Shown here piece after piece: positions 20,651 to 60,838 of a DNA stretch of 64,000 nt. The DNA is taken from positions 1,423,093 through 1,487,092 of the forward strand of contig CP076745.1 in the NCBI GenBank assembly GCA_019262145.1, in the 5' to 3' direction. This DNA comes from Candidatus Methanogranum gryphiswaldense (GTDB taxonomy: Archaea > Thermoplasmatota > Thermoplasmata > Methanomassiliicoccales > Methanomethylophilaceae). The translations under genes were made by a program, and so were the position numbers. The notes below the pieces were generated by a model. That model was not told the DNA's origin and made no database searches. It worked only from the letters and a program-made list of their open reading frames with translations. The stretch's first letter is position 1. Every line of letters begins with the position of its first letter.

Positions 20651-20726
20651 GGGCTCGTGGTCTAGGGGTTATGACGCCACCTTGACATGGTGGAGGTCGC
20701 CGGTTCAAATCCGGCCGGGCCCACCA
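20651..20726 (+). tRNA. tRNA-Val (anticodon GAC), CCA encoded
   Basis: Acceptor stem GGGCTCG/CGGGCCC with one U-G pair, anticodon stem CCACC/GGTGG around TTGACAT giving GAC, T-loop GGTTCAAATCC, discriminator A at 20723, and an encoded CCA at 20724-20726. It is followed by CTTTT. A box-A-like TTTAATAA lies about 30 bases upstream. Confidence 0.95.
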
Positions 20727-20823
20727 CTTTTATCATTTATGCTTTGACAGGAATGACGATTTGGATCCTTTGTATTCCAATCAAAAACAAATATTTTTTG
20801 TATTATGCTTGAAAAAAATAGTT

Positions 20824-21945
20824 TCATAAAAGAACTATGTTCTCACTCAGAATGACATCGTCATGCGTCCTCTTCCCAAGGATCTTCATGATCTTATCGC
20901 TGTGTATCCCCCTTATGCGATAGATCTCCTCAGAACTATAGTTTGGGATGCCCTTGGCGACCACTTCGTCATTGCAGACGATCTCGATCACATCTCCCTT
21001 TGAGAATTGTCCTTTGATATCCTTCACTCCCACTGGGAGAAGGGATTTATGGGACTCCAAGGCCTTCAATGCACCTTCGTCGATCACAATGGTGCCTGCG
21101 GCGTGGGCGGCTTTGACCCAGCGCCTCTTCTTGCTGATACAGATATCGGAAACGAATATCGTTCCGACTTCCTGTCCAGTGGCCGCCTTTATCAGCATGT
21201 CCTCCATCTCGTTGGAGACTATTATCATCCTGCATCCTGCATCCCTGCATATCTCAGCGGCCCTGATCTTGGTCTTCATGCCCCCTGTGCCGACGCGAGA
21301 TGTGGTGTCTCCGGCCGCGCCAGCTATGTCCTCGGTTATCTCTGTGACCGCGGGAATGAGTTTGGCATCAGGATGGATCTTTGGATTCTTATCATAGAGC
21401 CCGGCGACATCGGAGACGATTATCAGGAGATCGGCATCTATCCTGCTGGCTATCACAGCGGACAAGGTATCATTGTCACCGAACACCGGACCTATCTCCT
21501 TCACACATATCGCATCGTTCTCGTTGAATATCGGGACGACATCGTTCTCCAACAACGCATCTATCGTGTTGTTCAGATTCAACACGGTCTCCCTGTCAGA
21601 GTAATCATCCAATGTTATGAGTATCTGGGCGACGACGATGCCGTACTTCTGGAAACTATCATTCCATTTCTGCATGAGTATGCTTTGGCCGACCGATGCG
21701 GCAGCCTGTCTGATGGGTATCTCCTTGGGCTTCGGCTTCACCTTCATGGCCTTCAAGCCTATGCCTATGGCCCCAGAAGTGACGATCAGGACCTCCTTCC
21801 CCAGATCCCTGAGGTATTTGACCTGAGCCGCCACGGAGTCCATGAACATCGATGATGCCGTGTCCCCGCCCATCGTTATCGATGTGGTGCCCACTTTGAT
21901 GACGACCCTGTCAACATCTCCCAGAAGATCCTTCCTGTCAGCCAT
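20824..21945 (-). CDS. proB: Glutamate 5-kinase with PUA domain
   Basis: 373 residues. Phosphorylates glutamate to gamma-glutamyl phosphate, the first step of proline synthesis. The amino-acid-kinase domain (to about residue 265) shows RVVIKVGTTSIT, VLIVTSGAIGIGLKA, FNENDAI and VGTGGMKTKIRAAEI. A C-terminal PUA domain follows, as in bacterial ProB. ATG 21945 starts four bases after the proA stop; the open frame back to 22011 is inside proA. The two genes form an operon in the order proA-proB. ProC is not in the window. Confidence 0.94.
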   Translation of the reverse strand: MADRKDLLGDVDRVVIKVGTTSITMGGDTASSMFMDSVAAQVKYLRDLGKEVLIVTSGAIGIGLKAMKVKPKPKEIPIRQAAASVGQSILMQKWNDSFQKYGIVVAQILITLDDYSDRETVLNLNNTIDALLENDVVPIFNENDAICVKEIGPVFGDNDTLSAVIASRIDADLLIIVSDVAGLYDKNPKIHPDAKLIPAVTEITEDIAGAAGDTTSRVGTGGMKTKIRAAEICRDAGCRMIIVSNEMEDMLIKAATGQEVGTIFVSDICISKKRRWVKAAHAAGTIVIDEGALKALESHKSLLPVGVKDIKGQFSKGDVIEIVCNDEVVAKGIPNYSSEEIYRIRGIHSDKIMKILGKRTHDDVILSENIVLL

Positions 21946-56159: not shown

Positions 56160-57632
56160 ATGACCGATGTGGAATATGGAGATAAGTATGCTGTATTCAT
56201 CACCGATACAGGAATAAAATTCTTGACAAACGAAGTAAGTCTCCAAATTATGGAACTCTTAACACGTTCTGGAATGACCGTCACCGAGATCTCTGAATTG
56301 TTAGGACAGCAAAAAACATCCATACAATCAAACATGAAAAAACTTGAAAGATGGGATTTCATTTCATCTTACATTGATGAGAACGACAAAAGAAAGACCG
56401 TATATGTACCATCATCAGTAAAAATACTCTGCCCGGTAATACCATCGCTGGACATTGACTCCGTCGAAAAAGATATCATTGACACGATAAACAAAGAAAA
56501 TGAACAGTACAGGGGCATAATACTGTTGATGATCATTGAAGCCATGAAACTTGGAATAGATCTGAGCCCGTTGATGCTGAGGGGCGGATCACTTTTAGCA
56601 AAATATGCTGGAAAGGACTTTAAGAACATGGATACGGGAACACTTCTTCGTACAATGGAGAAATATTTTGCAGAGGCCAAATTCCCAACAACAGAGTTGT
56701 CGTTTAAAAATGGAGACCTGCACGCAAAGATACACATGGACCGTAATCTAAAAAAATCGTTGATGATGACTCATACGATGATCCTCGGGTATATGATGGA
56801 GGCAATAAGCCTCAATACTGGCGTTAGATACTGTCTAGGATATGTCAAAGAGGACTCAGATGGTATAACACATGCAATGATAACGCCGTATATCGGCAAA
56901 ATATCAAATGGAACTATAATTGATGATATGATCAAAGAGGATACCTACAGCGGATGGCCTCTATCCATATACTATGTGAATGGAAAATCAGTGCTTTTTG
57001 GAAATGAAGTACAGGTCAATATACTTCGGACATTAGATAAATCACAAATGTCCCTAAAAGGATTATCGAACAGCCTCAATATCCCGCCAGTAACTGTTCA
57101 TACCAACATGAATAAACTCGTAGAATCAGGCGTCATCAAATCGGATGCTGCTAGATCATCCAAGTATGTACGTTATGGTCTATCCGGAGAACCGGCAATA
57201 ATTGCTACAGAAAAAGAACCTCGTCTCAGGATAGAGATGGATGCATTATTCAAAAAATACGCAAATAGCCCATCCCAATACTACAAAGCGTTATTCAGAT
57301 ATGTCAACCACTCTTTTCGCCTTGTCGGATTCGACATAAGCAATATAATCAGACACATAGGCATGAACATCTCCGATTCAACGATAGAAGATGACCCGAA
57401 TATCTCTGCCATGGAATTCCTGAACACCATGTGTGAAAAGAACATGGGCCTCGGATTCAAACCATCTATAGTGACGTATGTACCACTTACTATCATACTG
57501 GAGCGTGATGGCCAAACTCTGAGTGAATTTAGATTCATAAAACCCTTCTATGAAGGCCTGTTTAAATTCGGACTCCTAAAACTTACGGGTGATGACTACA
57601 ATATAAGATTCCCCTTCGTTGGTAAAAAATGA
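56160..57632 (+). CDS. Internally duplicated winged-helix regulator
   Basis: 490 residues built from two similar halves. Each begins with a short strand and a winged helix: ITDTGIKFLTNEVSLQIMEL...NMKKLERWDFI (about 15-70) and VNGKSVLFGNEVQVNILRTL...NMNKLVESGVI (about 278-335). After each HTH comes an alpha/beta domain of about 160 residues, resembling a V4R-type or other sensor fold, with similar openings (YRGIILLMIIEAMKLGIDLSPL versus YYKALFRYVNHSFRLVGFDISN). The monomer could thus bind DNA like a dimer. TATA-like ATTTTATACTC lies about 30 bases upstream. It is followed by a palindrome array. Family not named; DNA-binding role well supported. Confidence 0.75.
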   Translation: MTDVEYGDKYAVFITDTGIKFLTNEVSLQIMELLTRSGMTVTEISELLGQQKTSIQSNMKKLERWDFISSYIDENDKRKTVYVPSSVKILCPVIPSLDIDSVEKDIIDTINKENEQYRGIILLMIIEAMKLGIDLSPLMLRGGSLLAKYAGKDFKNMDTGTLLRTMEKYFAEAKFPTTELSFKNGDLHAKIHMDRNLKKSLMMTHTMILGYMMEAISLNTGVRYCLGYVKEDSDGITHAMITPYIGKISNGTIIDDMIKEDTYSGWPLSIYYVNGKSVLFGNEVQVNILRTLDKSQMSLKGLSNSLNIPPVTVHTNMNKLVESGVIKSDAARSSKYVRYGLSGEPAIIATEKEPRLRIEMDALFKKYANSPSQYYKALFRYVNHSFRLVGFDISNIIRHIGMNISDSTIEDDPNISAMEFLNTMCEKNMGLGFKPSIVTYVPLTIILERDGQTLSEFRFIKPFYEGLFKFGLLKLTGDDYNIRFPFVGKK

Positions 57633-57693: not shown

Positions 57694-57766
57694 ATGTATT
57701 TCGTAATATAAATACGAATAACGTATTTTTTTAATACATTTCAACGAAATACATGATTATTCATGT
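57694..57766. promoter_or_regulatory. Dense array of palindromes upstream of a short transcript
   Basis: Three nested or adjacent perfect inverted repeats: ATGTATTTCG (57694-57703) with CGAAATACAT (57745-57754); AAATACG-AATAA-CGTATTT (57710-57728); and ACATGA-TTAT-TCATGT (57751-57766). The half-site GTATTT or its complement AAATAC also appears in AATACATTT near 57733. The array ends about 12 bases before a TATA-like TTATATATA, which suggests multi-site binding by a dimeric regulator. Confidence 0.6.
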
Positions 57767-57819
57767 GAAAAACAAACATTATATATACTCGGAATGTGAT
57801 ATATATTTACAGGAGGCAA

Positions 57820-57924
57820 GTGACGATCGGCAAAATTAATATGTCAAGACACTGCGGCGAGAACAATTCCAAGTTAGGTATGTACTCTAAAGTGAAAGAT
57901 AGGTCGGTTGGCACTTTACACTGA
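57820..57924 (+). CDS. Possible 34-aa peptide within the structured transcript
   Basis: GTG-initiated frame of 34 codons beginning MTIGKINMSRHC and ending VGTLH, with AGGAGG at 57811-57816 three bases before the GTG (closer than usual). An in-frame ATG at 57841 is further away. It is basic and contains one Cys. The overlapping RNA stems and poor spacing make this uncertain; it is an alternative to a purely noncoding transcript. Confidence 0.3.
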   Translation: MTIGKINMSRHCGENNSKLGMYSKVKDRSVGTLH

Positions 57925-57975
57925 AAAGGCAGGCCTTCAGAATTGTTCGCAAGACTCGACTGATGACCGCGACAA

Positions 57976-58020
57976 CCCGATCCTTTGATCGGGACCTTTA
58001 CCCTACAAGGGGGGTCTTTT
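57976..58020 (+). terminator. Double hairpin ending the short transcript
   Basis: Seven-base-pair hairpin (CCCGATC/GATCGGG, CTTT loop) followed directly by a second GACC/GGTC-closed hairpin with an inner CCC/GGG pairing and then CTTTT. Confidence 0.55.
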
Positions 58021-58025
58021 GAGGT

Positions 58026-58586
58026 TCATTCAAAGTAGATTGTTTTTCCTCCCACGACATCAACCTTCAAAAGAGTTTTAATCTTCTGATCGAGTTCCTT
58101 TTCTAAAACGGCCTTGTTCTTTGTTTTCTCAAAAACTATCACGACGTCCACGATCTCTGCACCGATAACATTTTTGAAAGCTGTGATGATCGCATGCATC
58201 GTACCACCTGTACTGAGGACATCATCTACAATGACTACTCTGTCGCCTTTCTTTATACCGTTTATGTACATTTCACATTTAGAATAACCTGTACATTGGG
58301 CGACACTAACCTCACCGGGAAGCCCATACTTCCTTTTTCTTACAATATTCATCGGAACGCCTGTCTTACTTGATATTAGCGTACCTATCGGTATTCCCAT
58401 TGCCTCTGGTGCAATGATATAATCACAATCAAAATCACCAATGGAGATCATGGCATCGGTGACCTCATCGAGAAGCTCTGGTTCTATGCAGGGTATGCCG
58501 TCGGTCAACGGGTGTACAAAATATTGATATCCTTTCATTCCGACAACAGGACATACCTCAAGACTTTCCTTAAGCTTCTCCAACAT
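58026..58586 (-). CDS. hpt: Hypoxanthine/guanine phosphoribosyltransferase, archaeal type
   Basis: 186 residues, type I PRTase. Converts hypoxanthine or guanine with PRPP to IMP or GMP. The PRPP-binding motif is VVIVDDVLSTGGTMHA (about residues 117-132); upstream are IIAPEAMGIPIGTLIS and VRKRKYGLPGE, typical of the archaeal HGPRT group, which is closer to APRT than to bacterial Hpt. It starts four bases after the adenine deaminase stop, forming an operon that turns adenine into IMP via hypoxanthine. The true substrate could include adenine, but an Apt is present at 60314. Confidence 0.85.
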   Translation of the reverse strand: MLEKLKESLEVCPVVGMKGYQYFVHPLTDGIPCIEPELLDEVTDAMISIGDFDCDYIIAPEAMGIPIGTLISSKTGVPMNIVRKRKYGLPGEVSVAQCTGYSKCEMYINGIKKGDRVVIVDDVLSTGGTMHAIITAFKNVIGAEIVDVVIVFEKTKNKAVLEKELDQKIKTLLKVDVVGGKTIYFE

Positions 58587-60313: not shown

Positions 60314-60838
60314 ATGAAGGACCTTAAGGACTACGTTACGACCATACCCGATTTCCCAAAAGAAGGCATAATGTTCAGGGACATAACCACTCTGATACAG
60401 GACCCCAAGGGTTTCCATTTGGCCGTGGACGGTCTCTGCAAAATGCTCAAGGATGTCGATTTCGATGTTGTATTGGGTTCAGAATCGAGAGGTTTCGTCT
60501 TCGGAGCCCCAGTCGCATATGCGATGAACAAAGGATTCATCCTTGTACGTAAGAAGGGCAAACTTCCGCGTAAGGTCATATGCGAAGAATATGACCTGGA
60601 ATACGGGACCGCCACTCTTGAGATGCACATCGACAGTTTCCCAAAAGGAGCCAAGGTCGTCATCATCGATGACCTGATAGCAACTGGCGGTACCACCAAA
60701 GCTATCATCGATATGGTAGAGAAACTTGGCGGACAAATAGTGAAGATCGCTTTCGTCATAGAATTGGAAGGCCTAAACGGAAAAGACAAACTGAAGGGCT
60801 ACAACGTGGAATCGCTCATCACTTACGAAGGAAGATGA
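60314..60838 (+). CDS. apt: Adenine phosphoribosyltransferase
   Basis: 174 residues. Makes AMP from adenine and PRPP. Segments match bacterial-type Apt closely: DFPKEGIMFRDITTL near residue 13, VLGSESRGFVFGAPVAYA, VRKKGKLPRKV and the PRPP loop VVIIDDLIATGGTTKA. The divergent adenine deaminase competes for the same substrate, and the palindrome between them suggests joint control. ATG 60314 lies about 25 bases after TTTATA, so it is probably leaderless. Confidence 0.95.
   Translation: MKDLKDYVTTIPDFPKEGIMFRDITTLIQDPKGFHLAVDGLCKMLKDVDFDVVLGSESRGFVFGAPVAYAMNKGFILVRKKGKLPRKVICEEYDLEYGTATLEMHIDSFPKGAKVVIIDDLIATGGTTKAIIDMVEKLGGQIVKIAFVIELEGLNGKDKLKGYNVESLITYEGR

Follow-up and report, generated by a model that had tools for sequence, protein, structure and literature searches.

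A predicted RNA gene of gut methanogens joins covarying helices with a conserved non-AUG reading frame

The locus and its promoter

The window, that is, the whole stretch of 64,000 nucleotides analysed here, belongs to a genome consisting of a single contig of 1,516,968 bases. Near its end lies a predicted RNA gene on the plus strand (Table 1). The gene occupies the 390-base gap described in the original prediction, which runs from the stop codon of an HTH protein gene, at 57632, to a hypoxanthine/guanine phosphoribosyltransferase gene that is convergent to the RNA. Beyond the latter stand an adenine deaminase gene, likewise on the minus strand, and then apt, the adenine phosphoribosyltransferase gene of purine salvage, on the plus strand.

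Table 1 Features of the RNA locus, in coordinates of the window
Feature	Position	Strand	Basis or remark
HTH protein gene	56160-57632	+	
Operator-like half-sites	57700-57725	+	TTCGTA-N7-TACGAA (57700-57718), overlapping TACGAATAACGTA (57713-57725); enrichment
TATA box TATATATA	57780-57787	+	sequence
RNA gene, whole	57812-58020	+	from about GGAGG to the terminator-like hairpin; both ends predicted
Covariance-model match	57812-57977	+	145 bits
SD GGAGG	57812-57816	+	predicted 5′ end of the RNA; GAGG invariant in 38 sequences
Open reading frame	57826-57924	+	AUC start, 32 codons, UGA stop (IGKINMSRHCGENNSKLGMYSKVKDRSVGTLH); conserved start position, open frame
P1 5′ strand (UGCGG)	57853-57857	+	pairs with 57967-57971
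P2 5′ strand GAACAAUUC	57861-57869	+	pairs with 57940-57948
P3 hairpin	57895-57917	+	57895-57898/57914-57917 and 57903-57905/57910-57912; four-base loop 57906-57909
P2 3′ strand GAAUUGUUC	57940-57948	+	covariation
Conserved 3′ motif GCAAGACUCGACUGAUGACCGC	57949-57970	+	near-invariant columns; includes P1 3′ strand
Hairpin CCCGATC/GATCGGG	57976-57993	+	sequence; present in some genera, not in others
Terminator-like hairpin, then TTTT	57993-58020	+	hairpin 57993-58016; sequence
Hypoxanthine/guanine phosphoribosyltransferase gene	58026-58586	-	convergent to the RNA
apt	60314-60838	+	

The TATA element named in the original prediction is present as TATATATA, and 45 of 45 loci have a TATA-like box whose first base lies 28-34 nt upstream of GGAGG. 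Given this conserved spacing, the start of the RNA is probably GGAGG or a site close to it; the 5′ end was accordingly placed from the TATA spacing and the 3′ end from the last hairpin with its TTTT.

Upstream of the TATA box lie operator-like half-sites. The density of TTCGTA/TACGAA sites is 14.6 per kb upstream of the RNA, where 39 of 43 loci have them, compared to 0.36 per kb elsewhere, and TACGN5CGTA was found 32 times upstream of the RNA and not once in 185 kb of other sequence. In the 1.52-Mb genome an exact TTCGTAN{4,9}TACGAA exists once, at the RNA promoter. Other TACGWWWWWCGTA palindromes are located at G000:C1 109520, 571582, 602030, 1176967 and 1413268, within intergenic regions that precede genes or close to such regions, and possibly mark a small regulon. 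MsvR, a redox regulator with the motif TTCGN7-9CGAA (PMC3729527), has identical half-sites. The HTH protein encoded upstream of the RNA has 490 residues with two winged-helix and two MsvR-like stretches; among the loci examined, such a neighbour was found solely in the window's genus. We do not assign the promoter to MsvR, since the half-sites upstream of the RNA favour a spacing of N10-11 versus N7-9 and the HTH protein scores 92 bits against the MsvR profile, below the cutoff of 220. Control of the putative promoter by an MsvR-like protein is thus a lead, not a result.

Distribution, novelty and neighbours of the RNA family

Searching with the region by blastn gave homologues in 41 of 102 genomes of the Methanomethylophilaceae-type family. 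A covariance model (R1) built from 38 of these homologues located the RNA in 49 of the 102 genomes, nearly always as one copy per genome; in the rest of the order it returned just one weak fragment match. A second model, applied to 400 genomes of the class, added two family members (L169 and L170) and gave a few matches near 18-22 bits outside the family. The gene is missing from several complete genomes of the family. E-values of such short-calibrated models are rough, and weak matches outside the family (L101, L102, L171, L172, L173 and others) were treated as chance; the model searches of the order and of the 400 class genomes thus contained no convincing homologue outside the family. The named genomes that carry the 3′ motif of the RNA are archaea labelled Methanomethylophilaceae, Methanomassiliicoccaceae, Candidatus Methanoplasma, Thermoplasmata or Euryarchaeota, apart from two matches in bacteria (L121 and L128), which are fragments of 18.0 and 16.5 bits and look like chance. 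A search of phage records and viral contigs gave none.

The RNA region has no Rfam match at the gathering threshold, as the original prediction of a new structured RNA without a recognisable archaeal motif had anticipated. At a permissive threshold the best sub-threshold matches, of 20-22 bits, fell outside the core, and in the loci of relatives Rfam gave nothing over the RNA. The archaeal RNase P RNA (RF00373) and SRP RNA (RF01857) of this genome lie elsewhere, at G000:C1:413287-413581 and G000:C1:806852-807158, respectively, and literature searches found no description of the RNA. This predicted RNA gene family of gut methanogens is therefore previously undescribed. Other Rfam matches include a marginal one to HPnc0260 at 20688-20830 of the window (minus strand; 60.9 bits, cutoff 59), which is antisense to tRNA-Val and probably spurious, and one to PYLIS_2, the mtbB pyrrolysine insertion sequence, near the RNA of a g11 genome (L009 2491-2590, minus strand). 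Genome G115 contains two copies of the RNA: an intact one (L099 1717-1882) that resembles the g7 type and a decayed one beside apt (L046 1367-1527), which has GGTGG and no AUH and still has its promoter elements. This suggests replacement by a transferred copy.

The commonest neighbourhood of the RNA is an SPFH-domain gene, the RNA and apt, and the RNA could be read as a cis-acting leader or attenuator of apt that was displaced in some lineages. It is situated directly upstream of apt in several genera (L095, L097, L105, L109), and in genus g12 no strong terminator separates the two. Opposed to this are the antisense genes, two in the window, that stand between RNA and apt in the window and in genus g5, with a convergent gene following the RNA directly in the window. 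Moreover, in genera g7, g6 and g13 the RNA has unrelated neighbours and retains all its features, and apt occurs without such a leader in genomes that carry the RNA elsewhere. We regard an apt leader as very unlikely. Rather, given the convergent gene downstream in the window and the unrelated neighbours in other genera, the RNA stands alone and is best described as a putative autonomous, single-copy gene, predicted to be transcribed, of about 200 nt.

Covarying helices and the frame that crosses them

RNAalifold, run unguided on an alignment of 38 sequences, recovered P1, P2 and part of P3, the last of which was extended afterwards. In this structure 94.1% of cells are paired, compared to 33-44% when partners are slid by 1-3 columns, and changes on both sides are seen in 123 cells versus 38 expected by shuffling. 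In particular, all 8 modelled pairs of P2 show pair-keeping changes on both sides and 5 of the 7 pairs of P3 show compensatory change. Pairing in P1 is retained in 99.5% of cells; four of its five pairs never vary and are hence uninformative for covariation. Folding energy does not single out the RNA: the window copy has an ordinary value (z -0.59), z scores overall lie close to zero, the full-length minimum-energy fold of the window copy lacks the conserved helices, and full-length thermodynamic folding, with mean probabilities of 0.16, 0.50 and 0.52 for P1, P2 and P3, does not reliably yield them. Since energy is not significant, the case for structure rests on covariation, by which a conserved RNA structure comprising P2 and P3 is well supported from comparison of the sequences.

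The original prediction had named two perfect stems and proposed covariance among relatives as the check, which P2 and P3 passed. Its 9-bp stem is P2. The 7-bp stem TAAAGTG/CACTTTA (57888-57894/57912-57918) is not retained in relatives and was dropped; the hairpin supported at this site is AAAG/CTTT plus GTC/GGC, in another register. The two successive 3′ hairpins ending in T were located as described, and the UUACCC...GGG of the terminator-like one recurs in most relatives. Stretches of the 3′ motif are 100% identical in other genera. Inspection of the alignment eliminated a GGUAAG/CUUACC closing stem and an AUCAGU/ACUGAU pseudoknot, each of which fits some genera only, without compensatory change. 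A K-turn at P1/P2 was ruled out as P2 begins with covarying Watson-Crick pairs.

An SD-preceded frame of 34 codons (57820-57924) had been noted across these stems. The frame exists, but the GTG at 57820 that was taken as its start is missing from many homologues, and the start position that is conserved is an Ile codon, AUC 57826, which lies 14 nt downstream of the first G of GGAGG. In 46 of 46 homologues this position holds AUC, AUU or AUA (AUH) and never AUG, at +15 (43) or +16 (3); L025, L094, L169 and L170 follow the same rule, making 50 of 50. L169 and L170, neither of which went into a model, both carry AUA, and their frames, of 33 and 36 codons, terminate at UGA. Many homologues have an in-frame stop in the interval from GGAGG to AUH, or lack AUG, GUG and UUG ahead of the conserved CGE codons. 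A spacing of 7-10 nt from GGAGG to the start is enriched at long ORFs of these genomes, and AUH is found at 9-10.

To count stops, we used a region set by RNA landmarks and not by the stop itself, in 15 representatives less than 70% identical. The frame contained 0 stops in 243 codons, compared to 15 and 11 in the other frames and a mean of 11.9 in shuffles, of which 0 of 2000 reached zero; homologues share descent and their counts are not independent, a kinship that the choice of representatives lessens but does not remove. The open frame persists in the hypervariable part, which is not conserved as sequence and is free of stops in that frame only, and the P1-to-P3 spacing is 40, 43, 46 or 49 in most members, length changes being mostly steps of three. 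The frame ends in UGA (26) or UAA (8), and the stop lies 3-17 nt upstream of the P2 3′ strand in 29 of 38 sequences. It lies beyond that strand in two, while four of the 38 have no in-frame stop before the core end. Of the 34 that stop, 32 have frames of 32-38 codons. L094, which is without P3, keeps a 22-codon frame that ends just before the P2 3′ strand. For L094 2527-4145 we note that this P3-less copy has, some 0.4 kb away, a tandem pair of serine recombinase genes, the first of which has resolvase and recombinase domains. Collectively, a conserved frame with SD and AUH start that would be read by ribosomes is well supported, and we infer that the AUH frame itself is translated. Thus, the alternative raised at the outset, a dual-function RNA whose tiny ORF overlaps the stems, agrees with a frame open in all homologues and with the covariation of P2 and P3.

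The encoded peptide shows no sign of constraint overall. Among 64 close pairs, differences at codon positions 1, 2 and 3 number 271, 270 and 284, and the ratio of synonymous to nonsynonymous change is 0.25 versus 0.28 expected; the first 12 codons have a slight synonymous excess (0.46 versus 0.31). The variable part lacks amino-acid conservation, and genus g11 and L038 retain the nucleotides of P3 in a shifted frame. The peptide matches no Pfam or NCBIfam family. One might nonetheless see here a small-protein gene, a short-leader mRNA that encodes, from a non-AUG start, a rapidly evolving peptide of some 34 residues, and in which the helices merely stabilise or tune the mRNA. The normally spaced SD at the 5′ end, a frame open in all homologues, the narrow range of stop positions and the synonymous excess at the beginning all fit such a gene, yet the equal differences across codon positions, the frame change over P3, the missing domain match and the covariation of P2 as RNA do not, and we consider it doubtful.

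Conversely, the RNA may be purely noncoding, the open frame and AUH being by-products of nucleotide conservation. The covariation of P2 and P3, the AAA and AU conserved at the nucleotide level and the missing amino-acid constraint are consistent with this. It is decidedly unlikely, in our judgement, in view of the hypervariable part, free of stops in this frame alone, the length changes in threes and the two new homologues L169 and L170, which obey the AUH and frame rule. Selection thus appears to see the frame and not the protein sequence. As the frame is kept and the amino acids are not, the selected property would be the act of translation or ribosome occupancy.

A possible translation-gated switch and its known counterparts

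The reading we favour, with a probability that we put slightly short of even, is a structured, ribosome-read, autonomous dual-function RNA in which weak non-AUG translation would gate the fold. Comparative evidence supports its components: the gene family, the covariation of P2 and P3, the promoter, the open frame, the AUH anchor and the unconstrained amino acids; transcription, actual translation, the switch and any target are predicted. Transcription from the gene's own TATA promoter would begin at about GGAGG, probably controlled by a transcription factor that binds the TTCGTA/TACGAA half-sites. GGAGG would then recruit a ribosome that initiates inefficiently at AUH; over some 34 codons it would traverse the 5′ strands of both P1 and P2 as well as P3, and in most cases it would halt just before the P2 3′ strand. 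Its passage would melt P1 and P2 and so alter the exposure of, or free, the conserved 3′ motif, so that the RNA would act as a switch reporting how efficiently translation initiates or how stringently the start codon is chosen.

In genus g12, several members of which have apt beginning a short distance downstream, the promoter, GGAGG, AUH and the frame persist while P1, P2 and the 3′ motif decay. Frame and RNA core are therefore separable in evolution, which argues somewhat against a strict switch. A search of either strand of the genome with the 20-nt 3′ motif, allowing up to 3 mismatches, gave no antisense match, so no target is in sight. A more specific version of the switch is that the peptide-independent, non-AUG frame serves as a sensor of translation initiation, for start-codon stringency or ribosome supply, which unfolds the conserved core, possibly under redox-responsive transcription control; this we hold to be unlikely as it stands. 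In archaea, aIF1 has been reported to favour discrimination against non-canonical starts (PMC6237735), and its link to the AUH start is only a hypothesis.

Few regulatory RNAs have been described from this group of gut methanogens, to which the RNA would add a new family. It is also a rare case of a short frame in which evolution maintains the openness and the non-AUG start but not the peptide. Should the passage of ribosomes be the signal, this RNA would serve directly as an in vivo reporter of archaeal start-codon choice.

Several known systems bear comparison. A tmRNA-like RNA, with a start-less tag frame for ribosome rescue, would likewise be a structured, single-copy RNA with a short internal frame that has no AUG and ends in a stop codon. 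The RNA here differs in having a strong SD at normal start spacing, no tRNA-like domain and no ARAGORN or Rfam tmRNA match, and a gene for SmpB (PF01668) is absent from the window genome; we judge this identity exceedingly improbable. Dual-function sRNAs generally have ordinary starts and conserved peptides. Here, by contrast, every start is AUH, constraint on the peptide is lacking and the frame crosses paired elements. Their conserved RNA structure has its counterpart here in the covarying P2 and P3. Shared with dual-function sRNAs such as SR1/SR1P (PMC8501984) are the short independent transcript predicted here, a structured part and an SD-led small ORF. In Haloferax volcanii, sRNAs with ribosome occupancy, most of them without coding evidence, have been described (PMC12482152); these are archaeal small RNAs engaged by ribosomes, as proposed for the RNA here, although the abstract of that work mentions neither a conserved frame nor a rule of non-AUG starts nor structure that covaries. 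Finally, according to the passage of PMC9845219 that cites Butler et al. 1987, the AUU of E. coli infC, the textbook case, is a near-cognate start retained so that initiation stringency can regulate the gene. Such a start appears to be retained in AUH as well; infC encodes a conserved protein, whereas the frame here is short and unconstrained and lies inside a structured RNA.
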